A stretch of DNA of 64,000 bases from Burkholderiaceae bacterium (lineage in GTDB: Bacteria > Pseudomonadota > Gammaproteobacteria > Burkholderiales > Burkholderiaceae_C), in the NCBI GenBank assembly GCA_919902775.1, contig CAKKRJ010000001.1:170364-234363 (forward strand). Reading direction: 5' to 3'. Both the position numbers and the translations under genes were made by a program. The notes below the pieces were generated by a model that saw nothing but the letters and a program-made list of their open reading frames with translations, did no database searches and had not been told where the DNA came from. Positions 12-55,169 of the stretch are shown here, one piece after another (within the stretch, counting starts at the first letter, position 1; each line of letters begins with the position of its first letter).

Positions 12-1799
12 ATGAATGCGCCGCTGCCCCACCACTTGATCCCAAGTGACGTCACCCCCATGGAAACTGAACCGGACATCGTGGCCTTGGTCAGCAGTGG
101 TGGCATGGCACTTTCCGTCATGGTGAGCCATGCCGAGCAGCTGCAACGCGACGGGCATGCCCAGGCCGCCTCCAATCTGTATGCCTTGTGGCTGGCCCAC
201 CATGACGATCCCCGCAAACATTTGGTGTGGTTCAACCATGGCTCTTTGTTGCAGCAACTGGGACACCTGGACCAGGCGCAAAACGCCTACGAACAGGCGC
301 TGGCGCTGGCGCCAGATTTTGCGCAAGCCCACATCAACCTGGGCTTGGTGCTGGAAAAGCGGGGCCAAAGTGCCCAGGCCATCGCCGCCTGGGCGGGCCT
401 GACGGGGCAACGCTATGCCAAGGACCCGGTGGACCCGGACATGTTGACCGCGGCGCTGAACCACATCGGGCGCGTGCATGAGAACAACCGGCATTACCGC
501 CAGGCTCTGGAAGCGCTGGAGCACAGCCTGTTGATCAACCCCAAGCAAGCGGGCGTGATCCAGCACTGGGTGCACATCCGCCAAAAATCCTGTGAATGGC
601 CGGTGTACAAGCCGTTGCCGGGCATCAGCAAAAACGAGATGCTCATGGCCACATCGCCCCTGGCCATGTTGGCATTGACCGATGACCCGCTGCTGCAGTT
701 GCTCAGCGCCCACGCCTTTGTGGCCCGCACCTATGGCTTGAAAGAAGAGCGCTTGTGCAAGGTCAAGCAATACCACCACCCCAAAAAACGCATCGGCTTT
801 GCATCGGGCGATCTGCGAGAGCATGCGGTGGGGTTTTTGCTGCCCACCATGTTGCAAGGCATCGACCGCGACCGTTATGAGGTGTTTGCCTATGACTTCA
901 CGGCGGACGATGGCAGCGAACACCGTAAACGCCTGCTGGGCATGTTTGACCATGTCCGCCCCATTCAGAGCTTGACCGACAGGCAAGCGGCCGAGCGCAT
1001 TTTGGAAGACGAAATTGATGTGATGGTCGATCTGCACGGCCTGAGCTCAGGGGCGCGGCCAGGCATTTTTGCCTTGCACCCAGCGCCCAAGCAGGGCACT
1101 TATCTGGGATTCATCGGCACGACAGGCATGCCCTGGTTTGATTTTGTGATCACGGATCGCCACGCGCTGCCGCCTGAACACACCGAATACTTCATGGAAA
1201 AGCCGCTGTATGTGGAAGGCAGTTTCATTCCCTTGACACCACCCGACGAGAATTTGCCCATGGTCACACGGTCCGATGTCGGCTTGTCCGAACAGGCGTT
1301 TGTGATGGGCGCGTTTGGCAATGTTTACAAAATCACACCGGAAATGTTTGCCGTGTGGATGCAACTGCTCAGAGAAATGCCAAACGCTGTGCTTTGGCTG
1401 ATTGATGACAATCCGACAACAACAGAAAACCTGAAAAATCAGGCCCGCAAGGCCAATGCTGATTTGTCGAGAATCCATTTTTCAGCAAGAACAGTGCACA
1501 AGGAGTTTTGTGCGCGGTTGAAACTGTGTGATGTTTATCTGGATACTTATCCCTATAACTGCGGCTCGACGAGCAACGATGTCATTCGAAACGGTGTTCC
1601 ATTGATCACCAAGTATGGTCCCACCATGGTTTCGCGCATGGGCTTGAGTATCGGTGCCGCAAGTGGGCACTTGAATCATGCTGTTTGCACGGATGCAGAT
1701 TACATCCAGTGTGTCGTGGAAATTCAAAATTCTGAAAAGACAGAATTCAAACCAGGGGTGGCACTGTCGATTTGTTTCGATGGTTTGTATGCCAATTAA
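12..1799 (+). CDS. TPR-domain GT41 (O-GlcNAc transferase/SPINDLY-like) glycosyltransferase
   Basis: A cytosolic O-glycosyltransferase that would move a sugar from a nucleotide donor to Ser/Thr of a protein. An AAGGAG Shine-Dalgarno lies just before the ATG. Residues about 35-190 are TPR-like helical repeats (LGHLDQAQNAYEQALALAP is typical). Residues about 255-590 carry the GT41 fold, with RIGFASGDLREHAVGF and YPYNCGSTSNDVIRNGVPLI, both characteristic of the SPINDLY/OGT C-lobe. It converges on the sugar operon and even shares stop-codon bases with it. The same TPR plus glycosyltransferase architecture is known for the flagellin glycosyltransferase FlmG of Caulobacter. Acting on the flagellins encoded 11 kb away is my inference. 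Family assignment is firm, substrate is not. Confidence 0.88.
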   Translation: MNAPLPHHLIPSDVTPMETEPDIVALVSSGGMALSVMVSHAEQLQRDGHAQAASNLYALWLAHHDDPRKHLVWFNHGSLLQQLGHLDQAQNAYEQALALAPDFAQAHINLGLVLEKRGQSAQAIAAWAGLTGQRYAKDPVDPDMLTAALNHIGRVHENNRHYRQALEALEHSLLINPKQAGVIQHWVHIRQKSCEWPVYKPLPGISKNEMLMATSPLAMLALTDDPLLQLLSAHAFVARTYGLKEERLCKVKQYHHPKKRIGFASGDLREHAVGFLLPTMLQGIDRDRYEVFAYDFTADDGSEHRKRLLGMFDHVRPIQSLTDRQAAERILEDEIDVMVDLHGLSSGARPGIFALHPAPKQGTYLGFIGTTGMPWFDFVITDRHALPPEHTEYFMEKPLYVEGSFIPLTPPDENLPMVTRSDVGLSEQAFVMGAFGNVYKITPEMFAVWMQLLREMPNAVLWLIDDNPTTTENLKNQARKANADLSRIHFSARTVHKEFCARLKLCDVYLDTYPYNCGSTSNDVIRNGVPLITKYGPTMVSRMGLSIGAASGHLNHAVCTDADYIQCVVEIQNSEKTEFKPGVALSICFDGLYAN

Positions 1800-2737
1800 G
1801 CGGCAGCAGATTCCCCATCCAAGATGGCTGCGGTCTCCGTCAAAATGACCTCCAGTGAGGACCACTGGGGTTGGTAGCCAAATTCGGCTGCTTTTCGGTT
1901 CAGGGAGTAATAGAACGGCTTGGCGCCCGTTGCATTGACCGAAGCAGTCGTGCCTGCAACGACCTCGTAGTGCAGCCCAAAATGTTCGGCCATGGTCTGT
2001 AACAACAATGGCTTGTCGATCGGTTCCCGCGAATAACAGTCGATGGCGCAATTGGCCCGAGGGGCAGCCAGGAGACATTCGACCAGTTGGTGAAAATCCT
2101 GTGGGTGCATGAAGTCCCGCACCATGTAGTCGGTGGATGTTTGCAGGCTGCGCTTGTCCCGTATGGCTCGAACGATGTCGGTGATGAAAAATCGGGCGTT
2201 GATGTCGTGTGTCCGGCTGAAAATATTGAAAACACGCAAGTCGACGATGGCCAAATCTGGCCGGCCTCGGTGCCCCACCTCTGCGTACAGTTTGGCCATC
2301 GCATAGCGATCCTGAGGCCGAATGGCGTTGATGGCGATCGTGGCTTGCGTGTCCGCCGTTGCGGGCTCGGTAAAAGAATTGCCGTAAACAGCGCCGCTTG
2401 AAAGGAACAGGTAGCGGCGATGGGGGTGCTGTTCCAACCCTGCCATCACCAGACCATCAAAATGCGCCGTGATGGGCAAAATGGCCGAGCCCATTTCTGC
2501 TGTGCGCATGGGGTCACCGACCCCGACGAAGTTGATCACCACGTCATGGGGCATCAAGCCATAGGTGTCATGGTGGTGAACAGAACAGGCGTGTTGCAGG
2601 CCATGTTCAACAACCCAAGCGCTCGTGCGATCGGTGCTGCGGACATAGAGTAAGAGATCGCGACGGCCGGCCTTGGCAAATGAAAAAATCAGATCTTTGG
2701 CGATCTGGCTGCTCGCACCGAGGATCGCGATGCTCAT
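1796..2737 (-). CDS. NAD(P)-dependent epimerase/dehydratase (putative sugar reductase)
   Basis: A 313-residue short-chain dehydrogenase of the extended NAD-dependent epimerase family. The N-terminus AILGASSQIAKDL is a Rossmann nucleotide-binding loop, and a Tyr/Lys active-site pair is visible at RYAMAKLYAE. It is the last gene of the minus-strand sugar operon and its ATG overlaps the stop of the thiamine-diphosphate enzyme by 4 bp, so the two are translationally coupled. In the CDP-yersiniose pathway of Yersinia a reductase (YerI) follows a ThDP carboligase (YerE), and this gene holds the same relative position. That role is inferred from context. It could equally be a 4-epimerase or 4-reductase acting on another sugar. 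Confidence 0.8.
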   Translation of the reverse strand: MSIAILGASSQIAKDLIFSFAKAGRRDLLLYVRSTDRTSAWVVEHGLQHACSVHHHDTYGLMPHDVVINFVGVGDPMRTAEMGSAILPITAHFDGLVMAGLEQHPHRRYLFLSSGAVYGNSFTEPATADTQATIAINAIRPQDRYAMAKLYAEVGHRGRPDLAIVDLRVFNIFSRTHDINARFFITDIVRAIRDKRSLQTSTDYMVRDFMHPQDFHQLVECLLAAPRANCAIDCYSREPIDKPLLLQTMAEHFGLHYEVVAGTTASVNATGAKPFYYSLNRKAAEFGYQPQWSSLEVILTETAAILDGESAAA

Positions 2738-4536
2738 ATTTCGTCGACAAGAAGATTGCTGCGGTACTCCTCGCGGTCCAGAAATGGCGCCATGTCTTCC
2801 AGTGGTCTGGAGCTCATGGAGCCGTCAGGATTGACGCGCGATGAGACGCTTGGAATGATGGCTTGTTCCGGTGGCGTCATGATTTCAAGGACATAGGGCC
2901 CATCGTGGTCAAAGGCTTTTTGTATGGCCGCATCCAATTCAGAGAGTGCGCTGACACGCGCAGCGGGCAAGCCGTAGGCGGCACAAATTTTGAGTGTGTC
3001 TGGAATGGACACCCCAGACCGAGCCCCTTCGCCAATATAGCGTTCTTGAAAGTAATTCTTTTGTGAGGCACGGATCGACAAATACCCATCGTTGTTCCAG
3101 ATGAACAATTTGATGGGAAGCTTGTAATGCAAGATGGTTTGCAATTCCTGGATGTTTTGTTGCAGGGAGCCATCACCGGTGATCGCCATCACGCGCTTGT
3201 CGCCGAGTGCTGCTGAAACACCCATGGCCGCAGGGACGGTGTACCCCATGGTGGCCATGGCGCTGGAAGGGATGTAGCGCTGGTTGTTGTGGCGCAGAAT
3301 CAAGCCCTGAGAGACTGCATAAATCGCAGAGCCTGCATCGCCAATGAATACATCACCTTCACCCGTCAAGGCAGACAGACGGTCCATGAAGGAATAAACG
3401 TTGATGGCGCCAACGGTGTTGGCATATTCCGGCAAGCAGACAGGGTATTTTTTCTTCCATCCCACACACCGTTGCAACCATGGGGCGCTGACACTCTTGA
3501 AATTGGCTTCATGCAGCCGCGTCAAAAGGCCGTCCAATGCCTGTTTGGCATCGGATTCGATCATGCGATCGATCTGGATGGTGCGCTTGCGATGCGAGGT
3601 CAGGTCGATGTCAATGACCACTTTCTTCGCAGCCCGCGCGAATTGCTCGTATTCATAGCCAATCACCGAAATGTGCAGACTGGTCCCGACCGCAATGACC
3701 AGGTCGGCGTTTTGCATGGTGAAGTTGGCGGGACGGTCGCCCTTGACCCCCGTCTTGCCAATGTAAATGTCCAGATCGTGTCGCAGGTTGTCAATGCCCA
3801 GATAGGGCGTCACGACAGGAACGTTGAATTCGGTGGCAAGCGCTTGCAGCACGGCTTGGGCACCTGCCAAACGAACGCCGCGACCGGCAATGATGACGGG
3901 CCGCTCGGCCTGCATGAACAAATCCCTCAACTCGTCCAGGACGGCATCACTGCCGGTGGGCACGGGCTCCATCGCGGTATACGAAGGCAAAGTGTCTGGG
4001 TCGATCAGCGCCGATTGCACATCCATCGGGATATCGATCCAGACGGGGCCTGGCCGACCACTTTTGGCGATGCTCACCGCCTTTTCAAGTTCATAGCGAA
4101 CCATCTCGGGCTGCGTCAAATGAACGGCGTATTTGCACAAGCTGGAGACGACAGGGATGATGTCCAATTCCTGAACGCCAAACTGGCGCAACCCAGGGAC
4201 GCCTTCGGTGTGCGAACAAGTGGAGCGCTTGACCTGACCGGAAATGAACAGACAAGGCACTGTGTCTTGCCACGCGCCACCCAGACCGGTCAGCGCGTTC
4301 AGCGCGGCTGGCCCGGTCGAAAAATAACCCACGCCGAAGTTCTCGTTCGTTCTTGCGTAAGCCTCGAGCGCCATGGAGGCGGACTGTTCATGGTGCACGC
4401 AAATGGCGCGCAACTTGGGGTTGCAGGCCACGCCATCTGTCAGATGCATGCTGCCCGCGCCGGACAACATGAAGATGTCTTTCAGGCCCAAGCGGTCGCT
4501 GATGAATTGGGCGATGTAGTCGGATACGCGGATCAT
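2734..4536 (-). CDS. Thiamine-diphosphate-dependent acetolactate synthase-like enzyme (YerE-like candidate)
   Basis: A 600-residue ThDP enzyme of the acetohydroxyacid synthase fold. The catalytic glutamate that activates ThDP is at about residue 50 (CVHHEQSAS), and the C-terminal ThDP/Mg motif is ITGDGSLQQN with a later NND. I use the ATG preceding IRVSDYIAQF, because GGGAG sits 5 nt upstream; the track ORF runs too far 5-prime. It sits among CDP-3,6-dideoxyhexose genes rather than with ilvN, so branched-chain amino-acid synthesis is unlikely. YerE couples an acetyl unit from pyruvate to C4 of CDP-4-keto-3,6-dideoxyglucose, and this gene is a good candidate for that chemistry. The substrate is inferred. 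Confidence 0.82.
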   Translation of the reverse strand: MIRVSDYIAQFISDRLGLKDIFMLSGAGSMHLTDGVACNPKLRAICVHHEQSASMALEAYARTNENFGVGYFSTGPAALNALTGLGGAWQDTVPCLFISGQVKRSTCSHTEGVPGLRQFGVQELDIIPVVSSLCKYAVHLTQPEMVRYELEKAVSIAKSGRPGPVWIDIPMDVQSALIDPDTLPSYTAMEPVPTGSDAVLDELRDLFMQAERPVIIAGRGVRLAGAQAVLQALATEFNVPVVTPYLGIDNLRHDLDIYIGKTGVKGDRPANFTMQNADLVIAVGTSLHISVIGYEYEQFARAAKKVVIDIDLTSHRKRTIQIDRMIESDAKQALDGLLTRLHEANFKSVSAPWLQRCVGWKKKYPVCLPEYANTVGAINVYSFMDRLSALTGEGDVFIGDAGSAIYAVSQGLILRHNNQRYIPSSAMATMGYTVPAAMGVSAALGDKRVMAITGDGSLQQNIQELQTILHYKLPIKLFIWNNDGYLSIRASQKNYFQERYIGEGARSGVSIPDTLKICAAYGLPAARVSALSELDAAIQKAFDHDGPYVLEIMTPPEQAIIPSVSSRVNPDGSMSSRPLEDMAPFLDREEYRSNLLVDEI

Positions 4537-4549
4537 ATGAGCTCCCATT

Positions 4550-5719
4550 TCACAAATGTCGACAAGCTTCGGCGATGCGTTCGAGCGCCAATTGGATATT
4601 GGCCTCTGAAGAGGCGTAAACCATGCGGACAAATCCTTCGCCCTGGGACCCAAAGTTCGATCCTGGCAACAAGGCCACATTGGCTTTTTCCAGCATCACA
4701 TCCGCAAACTCTTCCGAGCTGAGGCCAAAACTGGAAATATTGGGGAAAGCATAAAACGCACCACCTGGAAGGTGACACGCCATGCCAGGAATCGCATTCA
4801 AGCCATTCACCAGCAGATCCCGTCTTCTGCGGTACGTCGCCATCATTTCCTGGACCGGTGATTGATCGCCTTCAATCGCTGCAATGCCAGCCCGCTGGAC
4901 AAATGCGGAAACACAAGAGGATGTGGTTTGAAGCAACATCATCATCCGCTCTGCAATCACCTTGGGGGCAATGACCGAACCCAGCCGCCAGCCGGTCATT
5001 GCAAATGCTTTGCTGAAGCCGTTGGACAAAATGACACGTTCGCGCGCTTCATCAAGACTGGAAATAGAGAAGAAACGGCCTTCTTCATAAACCATCCGAG
5101 AATAGATTTCATCGGAATAGATGTAGAGGTCGTGCTTTTCGGCCAGCTCATAAATCTCCTTCAGATGTTCCGGCTCGGTGATCGCCCCCGTGGGGTTCTG
5201 CGGGCTGTTGATGATCAACAGACGGGTTCGAGGCGTGATCAACGGTTCGATGTCTGCTGCCCGCATGCGAAAGCCATTTTTGTCATGCAAGGGGTAGGGC
5301 ACAGCCGTGGCCCCACACATGCTGATCGATGACAGATAGGTTGGGAACCCAGGGTTAGGGACCAGCACCTCTTGCCCGGGATTCACCAGGCAGAAAATGG
5401 CATAGAAAATGGAGATGTTGGCCCCCGGGGTGACGAGGACTTGGTTGACATCTGGCAAGAAGCCTCTTGACTTGTGCGTGGCTTGACGCATCGTTTCCAC
5501 AAAATCAGCCAGGCCCCAACTGCTGCCGTAATGGGTCTCGCCGAGATCCAGTGACTGCTTTGCGGCCTCAACGATGTGACGTGGCGTCGTGAAGTCGGGA
5601 TCCCCGATTTCGAGATGAACGATGTGGCGGCCTTGTGCCTCGAGCTGCTTAACTTTGTCAATCACCTTGAACATGGGTTGTCCCTGAATCAGGGCTGCGT
5701 TGGCTGCAATTTCTCTCAT
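4550..5719 (-). CDS. Class I/II PLP-dependent aminotransferase
   Basis: A 389-residue fold-type I aminotransferase related to aspartate/alanine transaminases. The PLP lysine is about residue 237 in SNGFSKAFAMTGWRLG, with the substrate-binding NSPQNPTG and YSDEIYS motifs before it. The start is the ATG of REIAANAALI, which has an AGAGGTG ribosome site; the track ORF extends upstream into rfbH in another frame. It lies between rfbH and the ThDP enzyme with short gaps. It may supply pyruvate or an amino donor for the sugar pathway. It is not of the DegT sugar-aminotransferase type, so direct sugar amination is less likely. Its role in this cluster is unproven. Confidence 0.85.
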   Translation of the reverse strand: MREIAANAALIQGQPMFKVIDKVKQLEAQGRHIVHLEIGDPDFTTPRHIVEAAKQSLDLGETHYGSSWGLADFVETMRQATHKSRGFLPDVNQVLVTPGANISIFYAIFCLVNPGQEVLVPNPGFPTYLSSISMCGATAVPYPLHDKNGFRMRAADIEPLITPRTRLLIINSPQNPTGAITEPEHLKEIYELAEKHDLYIYSDEIYSRMVYEEGRFFSISSLDEARERVILSNGFSKAFAMTGWRLGSVIAPKVIAERMMMLLQTTSSCVSAFVQRAGIAAIEGDQSPVQEMMATYRRRRDLLVNGLNAIPGMACHLPGGAFYAFPNISSFGLSSEEFADVMLEKANVALLPGSNFGSQGEGFVRMVYASSEANIQLALERIAEACRHL

Positions 5720-5733
5720 TTGGACACCTCTGC

Positions 5734-7086
5734 TTAAAAGCCAATACCAAAAAATTCTTCGAGTTTGTCGGCGATGTAATCCAGCTGCGGCACATCCAAT
5801 CCCGGGAAAGTGCCCAGCCAGAAGGTCTGGTTCATCACGGTATCGGTGTTCGTCAGCTCGCCGCTGACACGGAAGTTCCGGCCCGCCATATAAGGTTGTT
5901 TGGTTAGATTGCCGGCGAACAACAGGCGCGTGCCGATCTTGTTCTGTTCCAGGAAGTTGATCAGGTCGGTCCGCTTCACGCCCGCCGTTTCCTTCAATAC
6001 CAGGGGGAAACCAAACCAGGAGGGTTCGGAGTTGGGCGTGGCTTGTGGCAAGTGCAAGAACTGCTCGAGACTCGCCAGGCGATGCTTGAGGTAGGCGAAG
6101 TTGGCGCGGCGCTTGGCGATGAATTCGTCCACCCGGTCCATCTGCGCCAGTGCGCAGGCGGCCTGCATGTCGGTGATCTTGAGGTTGTAGCCCAGGTGGC
6201 TGTAGGTGTACTTGTGGTCGTAGCCGTCGGGCAGGTCGCCGCCCAGTTCCTTCTTGGTCCAGCAAAAGCGTTTGTCGCAGGTGTTGTCCTTGCCAGGCGG
6301 GCAGTAGCAATCACGGCCCCAGTCGCGGAAGGATTCGGCGATCAGCTTGAGCTCGGCGTTGTTGGTGAACACGGCACCGCCTTCGCCCATGGTGATGTGG
6401 TGTGCCGGGTAGAAGCTCAAGGTGGCGATGTCACCAAAGGTGCCGACCAACTGGCCGTTGTAGGTTGCACCCAGCGCGTCGCAGCAGTCTTCCACCAGCC
6501 AAAGCTGGTGCTTCTTGCACAACGTGGTGACCACTTCGAGGTTGAACGGGTTGCCCAGACTGTGGGCCAGCATGATGGCCTTGGTTTTTGGCGTGATGGC
6601 CGCCTCGATTTTTGACGCATCAATGTTGTGTGTGGCCAAGTCCACGTCGACAAACACCGGCACAGCGCCAAACTGAATGATCGGATTGACCGTTGTGGGG
6701 AAGCCGGCGGCAACGCCGATCACCTCGTCCCCTGGCTGGATGGCGCGATCGCCCAACTTGGGGCTGGTCAGCGTGGAGAAGGCGACCAGGTTGGCCGACG
6801 AGCCTGAGTTCACCGTGATCAGGTGCTTGACGCCCAGAAACTTTGCCAAGCGCTGTTCGAACAGCGCGTTGAAGCGGCCGGTGGTCAGCCAACCGTCCAA
6901 CGAGGCGTCGACCATCAGCTGCAGCTCTTTCGCGCCGATCACCTTGCCCGAGACGGGGACAGTGCTTTCTCCTGGCACAAAAGCCTTGGGTGCGTAGGCG
7001 ATGTCGGCGTATTGCTGCACCAGCGCGCTGATCTGGCTGCGCAGCTTGTCCAGCTGCGGTTGAAAATGGACGGTTGTCGCGTTCAT
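5734..7086 (-). CDS. rfbH: CDP-6-deoxy-D-xylo-4-hexulose 3-dehydrase (E1)
   Basis: This PMP-dependent enzyme removes the C3 hydroxyl of CDP-4-keto-6-deoxyglucose together with the E3 reductase. At 450 residues it has the usual length. The decisive feature is [14 protein letters not shown]: the lysine found in DegT-family aminotransferases is replaced by histidine (about residue 229), the hallmark of E1 dehydrases that use PMP rather than a Schiff base. A cysteine cluster (CYCPPG...CDKRFC, about 251-266) fits the E1 [2Fe-2S] site. The ATG overlaps the stop of rfbG by 4 bp, so the two are coupled. Confidence 0.96.
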
Positions 7087-8150
7087 GGGGTGGATCTGTA
7101 TTGGTTAATCTGGTTCAGACAAACGGTGCGCATGTCCTGACCCTGGAGCCAGGCTTGATGCCACTGTGCAATGTGTTGGAGTGCGGTTTCCAGGGGCCAG
7201 CGGGGCACCCATTGCAAACGCTGCCGTGCTTTGGAAATATCCAACTTCAAAAAGCTGGCTTCGTGCGGATGGTCGCCGGGTTGCAGGGTCCAAGATGCGC
7301 TGCTGCCCCAGTTCTCGCAAAGATGTTCAACGATCCATTGCACAGGGCGTGCGTCCTCGTCGCGTGGGCCAAAATTCCAAGCCTCTGCATCGTCTTGTCC
7401 GTGCAGGGTCAGGCGTTCAGCCAACAGCAGGTAGCCCGACAGGGGCTCCAGCACATGCTGCCATGGGCGAATGGCGTGCGGATTTCGGATCTGTACAGAC
7501 TCACGCTTTTCCAGGGCACGCAGGATGTCGGGAACCAGCCGATCGAGTGCCCAGTCACCCCCACCAATGACGTTGCCCGCACGGGCGGTTGCCATGGCGA
7601 TGCCCGCCTCCGTCAGGAAAGATTGGCGGTAGGCTGCGCTCACCAGTTCTGCACAGCCCTTGCTGTTGGAATAGGGGTCATGTCCGCCCATGGGTTCATC
7701 TTCGCGGTAGCCCCAAACCCATTCGCGGTTCTCGTAGCACTTGTCCGTGGTGACGTTGACGATCGCCTTCACCGAGCCAGCGTGACGGGCCGCTTCAAGC
7801 ACATGGACCGTGCCCATGACGTTGGTCGCGTAGGTCTCGATGGGCTGGCTGTAAGAAAGGCGCACCAGCGGCTGCGCGGCCAAGTGGAAAACGATTTCTG
7901 GCTGGAATTCATCCATCTGTGCCTTCACCGCAGCAAAGTCACAGATGTCGACGATGCGGTGTTCCATGCCGTCAGCGACTCGGGCGACAACAAACAAGGC
8001 GGGCTCAGTGGGCGGCTCCAGCGCGATTCCGCGCAAGGTCGCTCCCATGGATTGCAGCCACAGGCTCAGCCAACTGCCTTTGAAGCCTGTGTGGCCAGTC
8101 AGCAGGACGCGTTTGCCGCGCCAAAAGTCAGGGTTGGTTTGGGACAGCAC
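7083..8150 (-). CDS. rfbG: CDP-glucose 4,6-dehydratase
   Basis: Converts CDP-glucose to CDP-4-keto-6-deoxyglucose with tightly bound NAD. The family signature [16 protein letters not shown] lies near the N-terminus, the [13 protein letters not shown] block in the middle, and the SDR catalytic YSNSK after it. I place the start at the GTG giving [10 protein letters not shown]: an AGGA lies 9 nt upstream, overlapping the rfbF stop, and the protein (355 aa) then matches family length. The track start, a GTG at 8195, would add 15 residues of rfbF overlap and looks less likely. It belongs to the rfbF-rfbG-rfbH block. Confidence 0.95.
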
Positions 8151-8161
8151 GGGCTTCAGTC

Positions 8162-8929
8162 CTATTTTTTCCAAGGTGCAGTGCCGTCTGCCCACAGTTT
8201 TTCAAGGGTGTTTTTGTCGTGCAAGGTGTCCATGGGGTGCCAAAAACCGTAATGCGGATAGGCCATCAATTCACCCTCTGCGGCCAATTGCATCAGGGGC
8301 TCTTGCTCCCAAACTGTGCGGTCATCTTTGAGGTACGAAAGTACTTTGGGGGACAGCACAAAAAAACCACCATTGATCAATGCACCATCACCCCGGGGCT
8401 TTTCCTGGAAGCTTTTGACTTGGCCATTTTGGATATCGAGTGCACCAAAGCGAGCCGTTGGGTAAGTGGCCGTGAGTGTGGCCGCTTTTCCGTGTTGGCG
8501 GTGAAAGGCGATGGTGGCGGAGATGTCGTTGTCACCGACGCCGTCGCCGTAGGTCAGACAAAACGCCTCGTCGTTTTTAACGTAATTGGCAACACGCAGC
8601 AAACGCCCACCGGTCATGGTGCTGTCACCCGTATCGACCAAGGTCACCTTCCAAGGTTCGGCACGTTTTTGGTGGACTTCCATTTGGTTGGCCTGCATAT
8701 CGAACGTGATGTCGGACATGTGCAGGAAATAATTGGCAAAGTATTCCTTGATCAAGTAACCCTTGTAGCCGCAGCAGATGATGAAGTCGTTCACGCCGTG
8801 GTGTGAATACATTTTCATGATGTGCCAGAGAATCGGCTTGCCCCCGATTTCCACCATGGGTTTGGGCCGTGTCGAAGTTTCTTCGCTGAGCCGTGTACCC
8901 AGACCTCCGGCAAAAATGACTGCTTTCAT
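8162..8929 (-). CDS. rfbF: Glucose-1-phosphate cytidylyltransferase
   Basis: Makes CDP-glucose from CTP and glucose-1-phosphate, the entry step of the CDP-dideoxyhexose route. The N-terminal nucleotidyltransferase signature GGLGTRLSEETSTRPKPM is complete, followed by GGKPILWHIMK, where the family binds sugar and metal. The product is 255 residues, standard for RfbF. The start is the ATG of KAVIFAGG, with AGGAAATC upstream, rather than the longer track ORF. The stop codon is part of the ribosome site of rfbG. Confidence 0.96.
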   Translation of the reverse strand: MKAVIFAGGLGTRLSEETSTRPKPMVEIGGKPILWHIMKMYSHHGVNDFIICCGYKGYLIKEYFANYFLHMSDITFDMQANQMEVHQKRAEPWKVTLVDTGDSTMTGGRLLRVANYVKNDEAFCLTYGDGVGDNDISATIAFHRQHGKAATLTATYPTARFGALDIQNGQVKSFQEKPRGDGALINGGFFVLSPKVLSYLKDDRTVWEQEPLMQLAAEGELMAYPHYGFWHPMDTLHDKNTLEKLWADGTAPWKK

Positions 8930-8939
8930 ATTGATTTCC

Positions 8940-9938
8940 TCAATTTTTTCCGGAGCTGACAAAAGCATCGGAGTGGAAACGTTTCTCTGGCAAGCCCGCC
9001 TGTACCAATCGGTTCCTGGCGCTTTGAATCATGGCATCTGAACCGCAGGCGTAGACCACTGATTTTGCTGGATCTGGTTTTGACGCCAGCAGGACATCCT
9101 GAACATAGCCTGTTGCACCATTCCAGGCATCCGATGGACGCGACAGGACGGGAATGTAAGTGTGCGAACCGGGTATCTCCGTCACATCCAAGTACAGATC
9201 GTGTGACTGGCGTCCGCCCCACACGACTGTGACCGACTTGGGTTGCTGGTCGGGTAAAAGCGTGGGCATGGACTCGAGCATGGCCTTGACGGGTGCCATG
9301 CCGGTACCGGTGGCGAGAAAGATGAGGTCGACGCCCGCAGTTTCGCGCAAGAAGAACGTGCCCAATGGGCCGTTCAGGCGAAGCAGGTCATTCGGTTGGG
9401 CTTGGTTAAACCAGTAGTGACTCATGGCCCCACCGGCAACAGCCCGAATGTGGAGTTCCAGCAGTTTTTCTGTTGAGCAAGCATTCGCCAGCGAGTAGCT
9501 GCGCCGGATACCCTGGGGGCCAATCACTTCGATGTATTGACCTGGGATGAAGCGAAAATCTGCGCTCGGCGGGAGCCGCAAAAAAACACGCACCACGTCG
9601 TGTGTCAAACGATCGATGGCGTTGATGCGGCAGGGCAAGGTTTTGGCGATGGGCAACACCACGTCACCCAAATCATCGACTTCCAGCAGAGCATCGGATG
9701 CCGCACTCCGAATACAACTCAAAATCCAACCCTCGGCCTTTTCAGCCTCAGTCAGACCGACCTCGGGATGCAATGCTTGGGTGGCGCCGCTGATGACCTT
9801 GCACTTGCACGTGCTGCATCGGCCTGTTTTGCAGCTGTAGGGCAGCGCGATGTGGGCTTGTGAAGCGGCGTCCAGAATCGACACCCCTGACGGGGCTGAA
9901 AATTTTTTTCCAGAACTCAGCGTGACCAGTGCCATCAT
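8940..9938 (-). CDS. ascD: CDP-6-deoxy-delta-3,4-glucoseen reductase (E3), ferredoxin plus FAD/NAD reductase
   Basis: The electron-transfer partner of RfbH. Residues 1-90 form a plant-type [2Fe-2S] ferredoxin domain (CKTGRCSTCKCKV plus a later Cys). Residues about 100-200 bind FAD (RSYSLAN) and the C-terminal third binds NADH (ATGTGMAPVKAMLE). The 332-residue length fits AscD/E3 of Yersinia. The start is one of two adjacent ATGs after a GTG; no strong ribosome site separates them. It precedes rfbF by about 10 bp in the operon, and with rfbF, rfbG and rfbH it completes the route to CDP-4-keto-3,6-dideoxyglucose. Confidence 0.92.
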   Translation of the reverse strand: MMALVTLSSGKKFSAPSGVSILDAASQAHIALPYSCKTGRCSTCKCKVISGATQALHPEVGLTEAEKAEGWILSCIRSAASDALLEVDDLGDVVLPIAKTLPCRINAIDRLTHDVVRVFLRLPPSADFRFIPGQYIEVIGPQGIRRSYSLANACSTEKLLELHIRAVAGGAMSHYWFNQAQPNDLLRLNGPLGTFFLRETAGVDLIFLATGTGMAPVKAMLESMPTLLPDQQPKSVTVVWGGRQSHDLYLDVTEIPGSHTYIPVLSRPSDAWNGATGYVQDVLLASKPDPAKSVVYACGSDAMIQSARNRLVQAGLPEKRFHSDAFVSSGKN

Positions 9939-10021
9939 CACTTGCGACTGTCGGTTAGGTTAATCATGCTTTTTCAGCCCTTGGCGCATCATACTTGTCC
10001 ATCACGACCGCTATGCCGTAT

Positions 10022-10924
10022 TCAGGGACGACGCTTGATGTGCTGGACAAATTCGCCCACCTGATCGAGCCAGCTGGCGGAGTACGCGTTGAGTTTGCCC
10101 ACCATGTTGTCCATGGTTTGGTCGATGGCCGACACATGGGGTGGCGTCGCCCGCGAGTCCATCCCGGGCTCGTAGGTCATGGGTGGCAAAGCCCCCATTT
10201 CCAAGCTGTCCACGACGGACCTGGGCAACTGCTTGTCCTGCATGAGAACGGGGACCGCGCCACACAACACGGCGTCGATGTTCGTGGCACTCAGGCAATC
10301 CCATGAATAGAAATACTTGCATTGGCGCAACAGCAGCGCCAATTGTTGTTTGTCGCGCGGCCAATCGCGCTCGACCAACAGCGTATTGGGAACGAGGTGA
10401 CAGTCGGCGTATTCCTGTCCTTTGCCGATGTAGGTCAGGCACAGGCTGCGCTGGCTCCAGTGCACTGTGCCGCGGTTGTGCATGTGCTCTGACACAAAGG
10501 GTTTGTACAGGATGCAGTCGGGGTTTGAAATGTAGCTGCTCGAATAGCTGATCACGAACTCGGAATCGATCTCGAATTTCGGGAACCCCAGTACATAGGT
10601 GGCGTAACGACTGGCGCCCAGGGGGTTGCCTTGGACGATGTCTGGATAGATGACCACCGCGTTGCGTGTGTAGTCCGAAATTTCTTGCAAGCTACGCCCA
10701 GTGAAGTAGTCATGGTGCATTCCGTTGGGGTCATGGAATTGCGCATCTGCGGAGTAGCCAAACTTGAAATTTTGTGCCGCTTGGCTGCCCTCGGTGATGA
10801 GAAGGAGGCCGGCTTGCTCGCCAATTTGATTGAGCGCAGTGCAAAGCTCGTGCAACACCATGATGCCGCCGGATCGCGACGAGTAGGGCGGGGCGACAAC
10901 GAGAAAGTGGGTCGGGGTGGTCAT
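10022..10924 (-). CDS. Putative glycosyltransferase-like protein of unknown specificity
   Basis: A 300-residue protein with an N-terminus resembling GT-B glycosyltransferases (FLVVAPPYSSRSGGIMVLHEL). A later segment around SATNIDAVLCGAVPVLM resembles the donor-binding helix and proline-rich turn of such enzymes. I cannot assign a family with certainty. The ATG lies 5 bp after the stop of the upstream GT2 gene, so it belongs to the same operon. The track ORF begins three codons earlier at a TTG. It probably builds the same glycan as its neighbours. About 80 bp without a gene separate it from ascD. Confidence 0.65.
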   Translation of the reverse strand: MTTPTHFLVVAPPYSSRSGGIMVLHELCTALNQIGEQAGLLLITEGSQAAQNFKFGYSADAQFHDPNGMHHDYFTGRSLQEISDYTRNAVVIYPDIVQGNPLGASRYATYVLGFPKFEIDSEFVISYSSSYISNPDCILYKPFVSEHMHNRGTVHWSQRSLCLTYIGKGQEYADCHLVPNTLLVERDWPRDKQQLALLLRQCKYFYSWDCLSATNIDAVLCGAVPVLMQDKQLPRSVVDSLEMGALPPMTYEPGMDSRATPPHVSAIDQTMDNMVGKLNAYSASWLDQVGEFVQHIKRRP

Positions 10925-10929
10925 CGTGG

Positions 10930-11760
10930 TCAAAGCAGCTGCTGCGGCAGGTCCAGTCCCGCAACGGCGAGCATGGATTTGCGCTGGAGTTGAATCTCGG
11001 GGGTTGGCGCAGCATGGCGTCGGTAGACGTAGAGATAGTCGATGACGGCGTTGAAGTTGGTGGCGGCTGCGCTGGAACCCCGCCGGTCGGTCGTGGTGTC
11101 GTCAACCTCACTCACCAGGGAGCAGGCGATGGGTAGGTGAATGGGCATCTGTCGGCTGAACACGGCCAGGAGGAAGTCCCAATCCTCGTAGGCCCGCATG
11201 GTTTCGTCGAACTCTAAACCTGCAAGCAGGTGGCGCGAGAACATGAAACAGGACATGTGGACCTGGTTCTTGACGAACACGTCCAGGGTGAGGCGTTCAC
11301 GCAGATCGAGCGCTTGCTCGGCCAGCTTGATCGGGCCTGAGGCCGGGCGGCTTTCTTTGATGACCGTGCAATCAAAGTAGAGCGCTGTCGCAGGCAGTTG
11401 TGGCCACTGGGCAAACAGGGACGCACAGAACCCCTCTTGCCAGGCATCGTCATCGTCCAGGAACATGGTGTATTGCCCGCGCACCAGTTTCAGACCCAGG
11501 TTTCGACTGGCCGAAGGGCCGGGTGCCCCGTTTCTGCGCACGTAGATGTCACCCTTGCCGAGCAAGTTGGCGCAGACCTCGTCGGTCGCAGAGTCAATGA
11601 CATCAGAGACCACAATCACCTCAATCTGGTCGCGCCCCGCTTGGGCGTTGACGGATGCCAGCGCTCGGCTGAGCAGCTGAGGTCGCAGGTGGGTGGGGAC
11701 GATGAGCGAGAGGATGGGTTTTGACACCGCCAGAGGCGAAGCCACCGATTCAAGAGCCAT
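10930..11760 (-). CDS. Family 2 glycosyltransferase
   Basis: A 276-residue GT-A glycosyltransferase. SLIVPTHLRPQLLSRALASV is the classic N-terminal strand and helix, and FLDDDDAWQEGF is the DxD-type metal and nucleotide-sugar site. YEDWDFLLA fits the later catalytic acidic motif (ED). The start at MALESVAS follows a GGAGG ribosome site and overlaps the methyltransferase stop by about 11 bp; the track ORF adds an unsupported 26 residues. Donor and acceptor are unknown, but placement with the CDP-sugar genes suggests transfer of that sugar or of another residue of the same glycan. Confidence 0.88.
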   Translation of the reverse strand: MALESVASPLAVSKPILSLIVPTHLRPQLLSRALASVNAQAGRDQIEVIVVSDVIDSATDEVCANLLGKGDIYVRRNGAPGPSASRNLGLKLVRGQYTMFLDDDDAWQEGFCASLFAQWPQLPATALYFDCTVIKESRPASGPIKLAEQALDLRERLTLDVFVKNQVHMSCFMFSRHLLAGLEFDETMRAYEDWDFLLAVFSRQMPIHLPIACSLVSEVDDTTTDRRGSSAAATNFNAVIDYLYVYRRHAAPTPEIQLQRKSMLAVAGLDLPQQLL

Positions 11761-12406
11761 TGGATGCCTCCGTCTCCAGGGGTTTTTCGCATTCGATGCA
11801 CAGGGATTCCATGACCCGAAGCGGCATTTGGGGCTCAATGGTCAAGATGTCTTCGATGGTGCTGTCTGCGTACAGGGTCCGTTTCACGTTGACGAAACCA
11901 GCATGCTCGACGAGCCACTTCAACGACGCGAAGTCGTAACCGCATTCGTGACCATGGTTGTGTAGCATGCCCATGAAGATCGCGGCAGGGGTGACGTAGA
12001 TATTGGGATCCAGTACCTTGCGGTACTCTTCGAAAAAGAATTCATTCTTATTGGTGTACGCGTTGATCCAGATCTCGAGATCGGGCACCAAAACGCGCAT
12101 GCGACCTCCCGGTGCCAAGACCCGGTAGCACTCTTTGATGAAACTGATGCCATCCAGATAGGAGAGGTGCTCGAGCATGTGGGAGTGGTAGACCAGGTCG
12201 AGCGAATCGTCCTCAGCCGGTATCCCGTTGCGCAAGTCATGGTTCATCATGAATGTGCCTTGGGTGCCGTTCAGGTCCTTGTAGATGGCGTCGTCGCCCA
12301 GGTGGCTCCAAAAGCCGATGTTCAAGTAACCTGGATACAGATGCGTGCCACATCCCAAGTTGTACTTCTTGAACAGATTGGAAAGATGTTTCATTGAGTC
12401 GCTCAT
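11750..12406 (-). CDS. SAM-dependent methyltransferase (type 11)
   Basis: A 218-residue class I methyltransferase. The SAM-binding motif I is NLGCGTHLYPGYLNIG, the acidic motif II region is DDSLDLVYHSHMLEHL, and VLAPGGRMRVLVPDLE is the typical post-motif. It is the promoter-proximal gene of the minus-strand sugar operon, downstream of a strong sigma54 site, and overlaps the next gene. A role in methylating a glycan attached to flagellin is plausible, since O-methylated sugars are common there. That is inference. Confidence 0.85.
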   Translation of the reverse strand: MSDSMKHLSNLFKKYNLGCGTHLYPGYLNIGFWSHLGDDAIYKDLNGTQGTFMMNHDLRNGIPAEDDSLDLVYHSHMLEHLSYLDGISFIKECYRVLAPGGRMRVLVPDLEIWINAYTNKNEFFFEEYRKVLDPNIYVTPAAIFMGMLHNHGHECGYDFASLKWLVEHAGFVNVKRTLYADSTIEDILTIEPQMPLRVMESLCIECEKPLETEASNGS

Positions 12407-12723
12407 CGCTTCATTACTCCCCCGAGGGTTGAGCCCCAGTCACCCTTTATGACTGGCTTGAAGGGGATAAAGCAAATTTTGCGCCATGCCAAATGAAGCC
12501 CAAACAGGCCTTTCTCAGCGGTTTGGCGGGTTGAGTCATCGGGGAGGGGGGGCGTCAAAGACGATTTTTTGACACTGCCCGAATATTTAACCGCTCCATT
12601 GCGCCATGGCGGTCATTTTTCGCAGGCCATTCGCCCGCCCCAAGGTCATGCGCTGGGTGCCGGGATGGCTGTTTGCCGCGCACTTGAAGAAAAGGGGCGG
12701 CAGATGATGGGGCAGAGTGCCGG
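12407..12723. other. Intergenic region between fliC2 3-prime end and glycosylation operon
   Basis: About 317 bp without a convincing gene. It holds the sigma54 promoter of the glycosylation operon (12471-12486) and the 3-prime flank of the second flagellin. I see no clear U-tailed terminator after the flagellin stop, so some read-through into the sugar operon is possible. Confidence 0.6.
12471..12486 (-). promoter_or_regulatory. Sigma54 promoter of the glycosylation operon
   Basis: Read on the minus strand the site is TGGCGC-AAAAT-TTGCT, one base from the consensus TGGCAC-N5-TTGCW with the correct GG-GC spacing. It lies about 65 bp upstream of the methyltransferase ATG. The flg operon is preceded by a perfect site of the same class, so the sugar genes appear to be under flagellar sigma54 control. 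Confidence 0.78.
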
Positions 12724-13536
12724 TCAGCGTAACAAGCGCAACACCGAAATAGGCGCCTGGTTGGCCTGCGACAACATGGCTTTGCCCGCCATCTGGAGTA
12801 TTTGCGCCTTGGCCAGATCGGCCGTGGCTTTGGCATAGTCGGCGTCGATGATCTTGCTGCGCGAGTCATCCAGGTGCAGCGCAACGTTGCTGGACGAATC
12901 GCTGGCATGCACCAGGCGGTTCATGTTGGCACCCCATTTCACGCGGGCTTCATCGATGCTGGCCAAACTGCTGTCAATCGCGTCCAGCGCCGACAAGGCA
13001 TCGCCTCGGCTGCTGATGCCGGCGGCAGTCAGCGCCGACAAGCCTCTGAAATCGGCCATGTCCACGGCATGGCCGTCGCCGGACGAGGCGCCAATTTGCA
13101 GGTTCACACTGGCCGTGCTGCCATCGAGCAATTTTTTGCCGTTCCATTTGGCGCCGTCAATGGATGCGCCCAGGTGTTCGCGCAGTTGCGTGAACTCGTT
13201 GTCCAGAGCCAATCGGTCTGAATCGCTGTTCGTGTCGTTGGCGGCTTGCAGCGCAATTTCACGCATTCTGGTGAGTGCATCGGTCATGCTGCCGGCCGCG
13301 CCGTCAGCCGTTTGCAGCATGGACACGCCATCGTTGGCGTTGTGCATGGCGCGTTGCAAACTGATGGACTGTGCGGTCAGCTTGCTGCCAATGGCCATGC
13401 CGGCCGTGTCATCGGCTGCCGAGTTGATGCGGCGGCCCGTGGCCAGCTGCAGGGTGGATTTGTCCACCTGTTGAGCGGCATCGGTCATGGCGTGCTCGGC
13501 CCGTGCGGCGTTGATGTTGGTGGCGATGCTGGACAT
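12724..13536 (-). CDS. Flagellin, second divergent copy
   Basis: A 270-residue flagellin consisting almost only of the conserved D0/D1 helices: N-terminal SSIATNINAARAEHAM and LATGRRINSAADDTAGMAIG, C-terminal SRSKIIDADYAKATADLAKAQIL. It is clearly diverged from the upstream flagellin: Q-V-D-K replaces L-S-K-T near the start, and the tail ends ISVLRLLR instead of SSVLSLLQ. A good GAGGAGAGG ribosome site is present. No sigma28 site lies in the 135 bp between the two genes, so it is probably co-transcribed with fliC or uses an unseen promoter. It could be a minor filament or junction flagellin. Confidence 0.93.
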   Translation of the reverse strand: MSSIATNINAARAEHAMTDAAQQVDKSTLQLATGRRINSAADDTAGMAIGSKLTAQSISLQRAMHNANDGVSMLQTADGAAGSMTDALTRMREIALQAANDTNSDSDRLALDNEFTQLREHLGASIDGAKWNGKKLLDGSTASVNLQIGASSGDGHAVDMADFRGLSALTAAGISSRGDALSALDAIDSSLASIDEARVKWGANMNRLVHASDSSSNVALHLDDSRSKIIDADYAKATADLAKAQILQMAGKAMLSQANQAPISVLRLLR

Positions 13537-13671: not shown

Positions 13672-14490
13672 TTACTGCAGCAAGGACAACACGGACGAGG
13701 GTTGCTGGTTGGCTTGTGCCAGCATGGCGGTTGCGGCCTGCTGAATGATCTGGCTGCGGGCCAGCTCGGTGGTGGTCTGTGCGTAGTCGGTGTCTTCAAT
13801 ACGGCTGCGTGAGGCGGCTGTGTTCAGCGACACGTTGCTCATGTTGTCGGCAGCGTAATTCAGGCGGTTCATCTTCGAGCCCAGATCCGAGCGGAAAGAA
13901 TCCACGGTGGCAATGGCAGTGTCCACTTTGTCCAACACAGCTTGCGCAGCAGTGTGGCTGCTCAGGTCCAAACCAGAGACATCCAGGCCAGAGGCGGTCA
14001 TGTCTTGCAAATTCAGTTCAATGGTCGAGTCAGTGGCGTTCTCCATGCCCACTTGCAGGTTCTTGGTTTGTGCGCTCGACAAAACCGACATGCCGTTCCA
14101 CTTGGTGTTGGTGGCGATGCGTGTGATCTCTTCTTCGAGCTGACCGACTTCGTCTTGCATGGCGGTGCGGTCTGCGGCATCGTAGGTGTCGTTGGCTGCT
14201 TGCACCGCCAATTCACGCACACGTTGCAGCATGTTGGTGACTTCTTTGGTTGCGCCTTCAGCGGTCTGGATCATGGAAATGCCATCGTTGGCATTGCGAA
14301 CCGCTTGGTTCAGGCCCTTGATCTGCGAAGTCATTTTGTTGCTGATGGCCAGGCCAGCGGCATCGTCAGACGCGCCGTTGATGCGCTTGCCTGTGGACAA
14401 CTGCTCCATGGTTTTGGAGAGATTGCGGCTGTTGACGGTGAGGGCGTTCTGTGCAACCAGTGACTTCACGTTGGTATTGATAACTGACAT
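13672..14490 (-). CDS. fliC: Flagellin (major candidate)
   Basis: A filament protein of 272 residues. The N-terminal VINTNVKSLVAQNALTVNSR and LSTGKRINGASDDAAGLAIS and the C-terminal RIEDTDYAQTTTELARSQI are canonical D0/D1 sequences, ending in SSVLSLLQ. There is almost no variable D2/D3 region, so this is a minimal flagellin. It has a strong AAGGAG ribosome site and its own sigma28 promoter about 105 bp upstream. Ser/Thr residues in the short central part (about 150-190) could carry glycans. The glycosylation operon lies downstream. Confidence 0.97.
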   Translation of the reverse strand: MSVINTNVKSLVAQNALTVNSRNLSKTMEQLSTGKRINGASDDAAGLAISNKMTSQIKGLNQAVRNANDGISMIQTAEGATKEVTNMLQRVRELAVQAANDTYDAADRTAMQDEVGQLEEEITRIATNTKWNGMSVLSSAQTKNLQVGMENATDSTIELNLQDMTASGLDVSGLDLSSHTAAQAVLDKVDTAIATVDSFRSDLGSKMNRLNYAADNMSNVSLNTAASRSRIEDTDYAQTTTELARSQIIQQAATAMLAQANQQPSSVLSLLQ

Positions 14491-14593: not shown

Positions 14594-14620
14594 GATTCGG
14601 CGGCTGCGTAAATAACTTGA
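14594..14620 (-). promoter_or_regulatory. Sigma28 promoter of fliC
   Basis: Minus strand: TCAAGTTA-N11-GCCGAATC, matching the FliA pattern TAAAGTTT-N11-GCCGATAA at the positions shared by the other sigma28 sites here. It lies about 104 bp upstream of the fliC ATG. Confidence 0.8.
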
Positions 14621-14644: not shown

Positions 14645-15064
14645 TCAAGTCGATTGGTTGTGCAACACGCCCTTGAGGTTTTCCAGGTCGTGTGCCACGT
14701 GCAGCAGGGCGGCATCGGGGATCTGCCGAACGATCTCACCCGTGTTGGCATTCTTGACCGTGATGACCACCCTGTCGGTGCTTTCATCCATGCTGAAGTT
14801 CAGGTCGCGGCTGCCCTCGCGCATCATGTCGTTCAGGCGTTGAATGGCCGAACGCAGGTTTTCGCGTCTTTCTTCTGAAGAGACCAAGGGCTCAAACTTC
14901 GGCTTGGCTTCTACCGGTTTGGCTTCTGCCGCAGCGGTGGCTGGCGACGTGGCGGCTGCGACATGGGCGGTGGGGGCGGTGTGTGCCGTGGCGGGCGCAG
15001 GCACAGGGGCCGCCACATGTGCAATGGGCTGGACTGGGCTGGTGGCTGAAATTTCGGTGGTCAT
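14645..15064 (-). CDS. flaG: FlaG family protein
   Basis: A 139-residue FlaG-type protein, thought to influence filament length. The C-terminal half has the family core: LNFSMDESTDRVVITVKNANTGEIVRQIP. The first 60 residues are a low-complexity Ala/Pro/Thr linker. It sits directly upstream of the flagellin pair but has its own sigma28 promoter, and fliC has another, so the genes are separately expressed late genes. A gap of about 150 bp separates it from fliC. Confidence 0.93.
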   Translation of the reverse strand: MTTEISATSPVQPIAHVAAPVPAPATAHTAPTAHVAAATSPATAAAEAKPVEAKPKFEPLVSSEERRENLRSAIQRLNDMMREGSRDLNFSMDESTDRVVITVKNANTGEIVRQIPDAALLHVAHDLENLKGVLHNQST

Positions 15065-15434
15065 GGTGCGCCTTCTCCTGTTGCGTGTGCGCGGAAATTC
15101 TTTACCGGCTACTGGGCCTGATAAGAGTCGTCGATTTCAGTATCGGCACCAGTCGGTGTTACTTGAGGAGGTTTTTTGTGGGGGCATGCTCACAAAGAGT
15201 TCAGGCTTCCTGTGTGAGGCTGCCCCCGCGCCCGAAGGTTGTTCTTTCGCAGTCGGTCAGGCGTTCTTAAAAACGCAAGTCATCTTTTTTGCCTTAAAAA
15301 AAACCACAATATTGATAACACCGCTTATACTGTAAAGCAGCTTTCCGACTTGGCCATTTTGCATTCAGTGCAGCTGGCCTCGTTTTCAATTCGCGCCGTG
15401 CCTGTGGATGCGGCGGCTTTTTTTGCAGGTGTTC
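15065..15434. other. Divergent intergenic region flaG / unknown gene
   Basis: About 370 bp. It contains the flaG sigma28 promoter (15140-15166) and an AT-rich stretch around 15290-15345 that presumably serves the plus-strand gene; I could not identify a well-spaced sigma70 site there. No gene is supported. Confidence 0.55.
15140..15166 (-). promoter_or_regulatory. Sigma28 promoter of flaG
   Basis: Minus strand: TCAAGTAA-N11-GCCGATAC, one of the best matches to the FliA consensus in the window, 76 bp upstream of the flaG ATG. Confidence 0.85.
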
Positions 15435-37287: not shown

Positions 37288-37314
37288 GAATCGGAACGAG
37301 TCCGAAAAACTTGA
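37288..37314 (-). promoter_or_regulatory. Sigma28 promoter of fliD
   Basis: Minus strand: TCAAGTTT-N11-TCCGATTC, in the gap between flgL and fliD. The -35 is an excellent match; the first base of the -10 differs (T for G). Confidence 0.78.
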
Positions 37315-49021: not shown

Positions 49022-49037
49022 TGCAAAAGTTGTGCCA
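49022..49037 (-). promoter_or_regulatory. Sigma54 promoter of the flgB-L operon
   Basis: Minus strand: TGGCAC-AACTT-TTGCA, a perfect match to TGGCAC-N5-TTGCW, about 88 bp upstream of the flgB ATG. Confidence 0.9.
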
Positions 49038-49176
49038 AGTTTTCCAGTCACCTTTTGCGGGGGGCATCAGGGGGAGGGGCGGGCCGGCGCAGGGGCATGC
49101 GGCGATTTTTGGTCTATGGCGGCAAACTCTTGCCGCTGGGGGCGGTGCAGGCCAAAAGCAGGGTGTCGAACTGGGG

Positions 49177-54834: not shown

Positions 54835-55169
54835 TTTTTATACTCCAGAGGCCAGCTGAGCGCACTCTCCAGTGGGCGGGCAAGCGGATTGATCTTGCAT
54901 GGTGTATCGGCAGTCGCGGGGAAGTCTTGAGGTTGCCGCCGGTGCGCGTGCGCTGCCGGAACGCGATGCATCCACGTCGCTAAAAACCCACGGCATTGTG
55001 ATTTTTATCAATTTGTCCCCTAAAGTTGTCGTTTTTACTTGCTTGAAGTTGTGTTTATCATTTATAAACGTCAAAAGTCTTATTTGTATCAATTTTTTAC
55101 AGGGCGATAGGTTGGCATTTTGCCGGATCTGAACGCTCAGACGCCCGACAACACCTTGATCTTTTGCGG
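54835..55169. other. Divergent region flgP / FleQ-like activator
   Basis: About 335 bp with no gene. The flgP side has the sigma28 site (54904-54930). The activator side (about 54990-55100) is strongly AT-rich and has the inverted repeat GTTTAT-CATTT-ATAAAC at 55053-55069, a plausible operator or part of a promoter (TTGCTT-N18-TATAAA). Confidence 0.55.
54904..54930 (-). promoter_or_regulatory. Sigma28 promoter of the flgP operon
   Basis: Minus strand: TCAAGACT-N11-GCCGATAC, with the same -10 as the flaG site, 70 bp upstream of the flgP ATG. Confidence 0.82.

Follow-up and report, generated by a model that had tools for sequence, protein, structure and literature searches.

Directly downstream of two flagellin genes in the window (the whole stretch of 64,000 nucleotides analysed here) lies an operon of sugar genes, and a sigma54 element points into it. 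This arrangement raises the question whether the operon belongs to the flagellar regulon and whether its sugar is made for the filament. An earlier note had answered in the affirmative on the ground that the promoter class is shared with flgB, and had added that the sugar would be made before flagellin. The operon indeed comprises ten genes headed by a methyltransferase, as that note had counted, and a glycosyltransferase gene converges on it:

12-1799 (+), TPR-GT41 (OGT/SPINDLY-type) glycosyltransferase, convergent to the sugar operon
1796-2737 (-), NAD-dependent epimerase/reductase, YerF-like by position
2734-4680 (-), YerE-like thiamine-diphosphate enzyme, likely start near 4536; best PDB match 8rph, E 1e-133
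4550-5725 (-), class I/II aminotransferase
5734-7086 (-), CDP-4-keto-6-deoxyglucose 3-dehydrase (RfbH); NF011936, 740 bits versus a cut-off of 423; PDB 3bcx, E 6e-206
7083-8195 (-), CDP-glucose 4,6-dehydratase (RfbG); TIGR02622, 510 bits versus a cut-off of 278
8162-8968 (-), glucose-1-phosphate cytidylyltransferase (RfbF); TIGR02623, 459 bits versus a cut-off of 300
8940-9941 (-), Fe-S flavin reductase, likely the RfbH partner, AscD/DdhD-like by position
10022-10933 (-), protein without Pfam or NCBIfam match; homologues elsewhere adjoin GT41 and methyltransferase genes
10930-11838 (-), GT2 glycosyltransferase, true start perhaps inside the ORF
11750-12406 (-), methyltransferase (Pfam Methyltransf_11), first gene of the operon

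RfbF, RfbG and RfbH, all three of which pass curated cut-offs, co-occur here with the YerE-like enzyme, in which the canonical GDG motif is present and whose best structural match, 8rph, is JanthE (PMC12188165). By analogy, the product is probably a CDP-linked 3,6-dideoxy-4-keto sugar, branched at C-4, and the operon probably methylates and transfers it as well.

The region ahead of the methyltransferase contains the following elements:

12436-12456 (.), perfect 7-bp inverted repeat CCAGTCA-N7-TGACTGG, just downstream of the sigma54 element
12471-12486 (-), sigma54 (-24/-12) promoter element TGGCGC-AAAAT-TTGCT, TGGCGCAAAATTTGCT
12547-12580 (.), imperfect inverted repeat with a GTCAAA...TTTGAC core, upstream of the sigma54 element; candidate activator site

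Compared to TGGCAC-N5-TTGCW the sigma54 element has a single departure, A to G in the -24 part, and its GG and GC dinucleotides are 10 bp apart, which is the exact spacing, ahead of a gene on the same strand. It sits in the 317-bp intergenic region between the flagellin gene at 12724-13536 (-) and the methyltransferase gene, the ATG of which (12406) lies 65 bp downstream; the transcript is predicted to start near 12460. In this region we found neither a sigma70-like promoter nor a sigma28-like site above background. The motif alone is weak evidence, since the window contains no excess of loose matches with at most two mismatches (58 observed versus 66.8 expected), and a low-threshold weight scan returned too many matches to be of use. 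On a simple score with weights assigned manually after the known consensus, it reaches 15.6 of 16.9. A coding-strand site at least as good turned up in 1.1% of 317-bp windows drawn at random from the flagellar island, true promoters included, and in 0.21% of resamples generated from the intergenic region itself by a Markov model, which makes the element rarer than chance (P about 0.002-0.01). In the whole genome the strict pattern TGGCRC-N5-TTGCW yielded 57 matches, many of them intragenic, versus 4 for the reversed pattern; the matches at 29485, 44057, 55306 and 49250 of the window were set aside as lying inside ORFs. The element that the earlier note had pointed out was thus confirmed as intergenic, correctly oriented, near-consensus and rarer than chance, and, as read from the sequence, it is probably a genuine RpoN (sigma54) promoter, from which the ten-gene operon would be transcribed.

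Membership of the flagellar regulon demands a comparison with the sigma54 promoters of recognized flagellar genes. The relevant features of the window are:

49022-49037 (-), flgB sigma54 promoter element TGGCAC-AACTT-TTGCA, TGGCACAACTTTTGCA, zero mismatch
49119-49136 (.), palindrome GCGGCAA-N4-TTGCCGC, 14/14, upstream of flgB; putative activator box
55164-56441 (+), sigma54-dependent activator without receiver domain, in the flagellar island

The site ahead of flgB is a full match, in agreement with what had been noted before. In the 114 kb surrounding the window, sigma54 elements were located ahead of flgB, fliK and flhA, ahead of genes for a third flagellin, a TPR-like protein and an activator, and ahead of GT41 and the sugar operon; fliK, flhA and the TPR-like gene were named from sequence and gene order. 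An unbiased gapped-word count around 13 sigma54 promoters of this kind recovered CGGC-N7-TGCC or a variant of it at up to 9 of them, versus at most 5 in shuffles. The corresponding palindrome, GCGGCAA-N4-TTGCCGC, which was found de novo, lies near six of the eight sigma54 promoters of the 114-kb region: besides the complete copy at flgB, 13 of 14 positions are matched near GT41, fliK, flhA and flagellin 3 (one copy being common to fliK and flhA) and 12 of 14 near the TPR-like gene. At the sugar operon promoter the best match is 9 of 14, which is chance level, and the activator gene that is preceded by a sigma54 element likewise stays at background (9/14). Only 4 of the 50 strict sigma54 matches examined have a palindrome of at least 12 nearby, namely those at flgB, flhA, the TPR gene and GT41. 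The strict combination of element and palindrome gave 23 matches across 90 Limnohabitans genomes versus 0 for the reversed control, and in the source genome it singles out GT41 and flgB only. A FleQ-like motif, GTC-N8-GAC, seen at GT41, flgB and in some relatives, was rejected as too weak; at that spacing it is absent from the sugar promoter. Exact copies of CGGCAA-N4-TTGCCG were also observed outside the flagellar island (G000:C2:300270-300285 and G000:C10:58638-58653). Outside the window, contig C1 of the source genome (G000) further carries a 2674-aa ORF with degenerate TQIxxL-type repeats (window coordinates -8356 to -335), which lies between GT41 and flagellin 3, and a 164-aa gene (-8945 to -8454) with a sigma54 element and a 12/14 palindrome, located between this giant ORF and the third flagellin.

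The control signals of the GT41 gene lie just beyond the window:

contig C1:170309-170324, GT41 sigma54 element TGGCACTCAACTTGCA, about 55 bp outside the window
contig C1:170224-170239, GT41 palindrome CGGCAGTTTGTTGCCG, 13/14, outside the window

The encoded protein, which among PDB structures is similar to OGT and SPINDLY, combines N-terminal TPRs with a GT41 domain. A sigma54 element is found 49-107 bp upstream of the gene in 10 of 11 Limnohabitans orthologues, the palindrome matches 11-13 of 14 positions in all six Limnohabitans orthologues checked, and three close species have kept both palindrome and -24/-12 element. Moreover, the GT41 orthologues adjoin flagellins in the genomes examined. 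Judged by these sequence signals, the transferase can firmly be assigned to the flagellar sigma54 class. In the sister species G053, GT41 heads a tight co-directional run of CDP-sugar genes (GT41, RfbF, RfbG, 3,5-epimerase, C-methyltransferase, an aminotransferase-like stretch, hexapeptide acyltransferase and CmcI-type methyltransferase), so that the CDP-sugar genes of that species would stand under a complete flagellar-type promoter. Several Limnohabitans orthologues of GT41 (L089-L092, L094) are encoded by ORFs of about 870-990 aa, with an extra C-terminal region. With its element, its palindrome and its genus-wide conservation, the predicted GT41 promoter is better evidence of flagellar regulation than the sugar promoter: the putative switch of GT41 is of the complete flagellar type, that of the sugar operon is half of it.

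The search for the motif upstream of orthologous operons, which the earlier note had proposed as a check, gave a divided answer. The methyltransferase gene is rare; it was found in the source genome and in one other among 149 relatives sampled, and no additional copy was found among 399 genomes sampled across the order. Two flagellin-linked orthologous operons could be compared. In locus L058, from an uncultured betaproteobacterium, an equally strong sigma54 element, TGGCACTCATTTTGCT, is present about 48 bp upstream of the probable first codon of the methyltransferase; the genes that follow are of similar kinds to those of the window, yet are not orthologous. The closest orthologue, 80% identical and also beside flagellins, is that of Limnohabitans sp. 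LMRC04, which belongs to the same genus as the source, and no strong sigma54 element precedes it. None of six orthologues without nearby flagellins has the element. The occurrence in flagellin-linked L058 and the absence from the six unlinked loci fit a flagellar linkage in a small sample. We did not count a 12/14 palindrome of LMRC04 in favour of the sugar operon, because the alignment of its intergenic region with that of the window showed no convincing homology. Between flagellin and methyltransferase LMRC04 carries a divergent gene that is itself preceded, at about 30 bp, by a sigma54 site, TGGCCCAATAATTGCT. This gene encodes a 412-aa protein without Pfam match (L043:1985-3223 (+)), with a homologue downstream of GT41 in G070 (L116:18450-19688 (+)), which we take by eye to be flagellin lysine-N-methylase-like, and which is a candidate second flagellin-modification gene in these islands.

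Does the shared promoter class, then, place the operon in the flagellar regulon? The proposition held in part. It is favoured by the sigma54 class itself, by the L058 element, and by the regulators of the source genome, which has a single rpoN, one clear fliA, two sigma54-activator genes inside the flagellar island and no match for FlhC (in an assembly estimated to be 84% complete). Against it stand the lack of a strong site in LMRC04, the missing palindrome and the total of seven strong activator genes in the genome; because of the last two points, sigma54 class alone is insufficient to establish membership. The sugar genes nevertheless have flagellin genes and the gene of a protein-type (OGT-like) transferase as neighbours, and the promoter suggests the same kind of switch as that of flagellum genes and a sugar that decorates the filament. 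On balance we consider it reasonably probable that the island is a sigma54-timed flagellin-glycosylation system that includes the sugar operon. Within the flagellar locus, the operon and the convergent TPR-GT41 gene would together make up an island for flagellin glycosylation. RpoN and a flagellar activator of the island would transcribe GT41 along with the rod/hook class (flgB, fliK, flhA), and RpoN would drive the sugar operon too, probably but not demonstrably via the activators that serve GT41. By the time sigma28-class flagellin is synthesized, both the transferase and the sugar would then be in place.

An alternative that we regard as rather unlikely is that the operon depends on RpoN but answers to a non-flagellar activator, for instance one for nitrogen or stress, in which case it would fall outside the flagellar regulon although its product might still be flagellar. 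The missing palindrome, the different inverted repeats at 12547-12580 and 12436-12456, and the five strong activator genes outside the island are all compatible with such control, but the operon adjoins flagellins, flagellin-linked L058 has the element in the same place, and the GT41 partner bears the complete flagellar signature. We give little credence to a second alternative, in which the operon is mainly served by read-through from a sigma28-class flagellin promoter and the sigma54 element is fortuitous or minor. The operon follows the flagellin gene directly on the same strand, and in the 317-bp gap we found no intrinsic terminator, so that read-through is possible; a chance site of this quality is expected in about 0.2-1% of such gaps, and the closest orthologue, LMRC04, lacks a strong one. 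Yet the gap is 317 bp long and has a near-consensus element in the correct place, L058 has a strong element independently, and in LMRC04 read-through cannot serve, since the divergent gene separates flagellin from methyltransferase. That the sugar is meant for LPS or capsule, the usual destination of yersiniose-type sugars, and that its operon lies in the island incidentally appears very improbable: known YerE-like enzymes do build branched LPS sugars (PMC12247030) and the methyltransferase has relatives away from flagellins in Nitrospirillum and Cupriavidus, but the operon has as neighbours both flagellins and an OGT-type transferase that bears flagellar promoter signals, sister species G053 has a different CDP-sugar cassette in the same island, and in Sterolibacterium, Paucibacter and Janthinobacterium the methyltransferase is again found next to GT41-like genes.

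If the operon is part of a sigma54-timed glycosylation system, its timing relative to flagellin depends on the flagellin promoters:

12724-13536 (-), flagellin 1
13672-14490 (-), flagellin 2
14594-14620 (-), sigma28-like promoter TCAAGTTA-N11-GCCGAATC, of flagellin 2
14645-15064 (-), FlaG
window 15140-15166, sigma28-like promoter TCAAGTAA-N11-GCCGATAC, upstream of flaG
window 37288-37314, sigma28-like promoter TCAAGTTT-N11-TCCGATTC, upstream of fliD; present in two of three relatives checked

Sigma28-like sites thus occur at flaG, at the flagellin gene 13672-14490 and at fliD, and some are conserved in relatives. The third flagellin has a sigma54 promoter of the class seen at flgB, and hook-class sugar genes would therefore precede the sigma28 flagellin, not the sigma54 one. 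The idea that the sugar is made before flagellin consequently applies to the flagellin at 13672-14490, but does not extend to the third.

We tentatively extend the glycosylation model one step further, in that Limnohabitans flagellins might carry a C-4-branched, methylated 3,6-dideoxy sugar, made by a YerE-type CDP pathway and attached by GT41, and that the island might be modular, with a conserved, flagellar-regulated transferase and interchangeable CDP-sugar cassettes. If so, flagellar surface chemistry would differ between species with regulation unchanged, which would offer a simple route to an altered filament surface facing grazers, phages and hosts. It would also connect flagella, in a genus of freshwater bacteria, with a branched-sugar pathway that is rare and of the LPS type. 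In addition, the sigma54 element plus GCGGCAA palindrome constitutes a testable cis-regulatory code for finding flagellar genes in Limnohabitans, which also picks out a probable flagellin-modifying transferase.

The flagellin sugar of Helicobacter and Campylobacter is pseudaminic acid. RpoN-dependent flagellin glycosylation is known from Helicobacter pylori and Campylobacter jejuni, where the flagellin-modification enzymes fall in the sigma54 (middle) flagellar class (PMC3930126), as proposed here, although the activator there is FlgR, whereas the present island pairs a GT41 transferase with a CDP-dideoxy sugar cassette and has other activators. A TPR-transferase for flagellin has been described in Caulobacter crescentus: FlmG, whose TPRs bind flagellin and which is made before the late flagellar components (PMC7591256). 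GT41 resembles it in size and layout (about 596 aa, N-terminal TPRs, C-terminal GT-B transferase domain), but FlmG works with pseudaminic acid, is under CtrA control and is not reported as sigma54-dependent (PMC7591256). The use of sigma54 and dedicated activators for the hook-basal-body, with sigma28 acting late, is shared with the hierarchies of polar flagellates (FlrA/FlrBC, FleQ/FleSR, FlbD; PMC7064773, PMC3930126), from which the island differs in an activator without receiver domain and in a palindrome found de novo. The sugar pathway itself resembles that of YerE and JanthE in its CDP-glucose route to a 3,6-dideoxy-4-keto sugar and its YerE-like thiamine-diphosphate enzyme (PMC12247030, PMC12188165); the known members serve LPS, whereas here the genes lie at a flagellin locus, behind a sigma54 element and with an extra class I/II aminotransferase. 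A YerE-type branched sugar on flagellin was not described in the literature searched, and it is the branched CDP-sugar cassette that is new relative to the known RpoN-dependent flagellin glycosylation.
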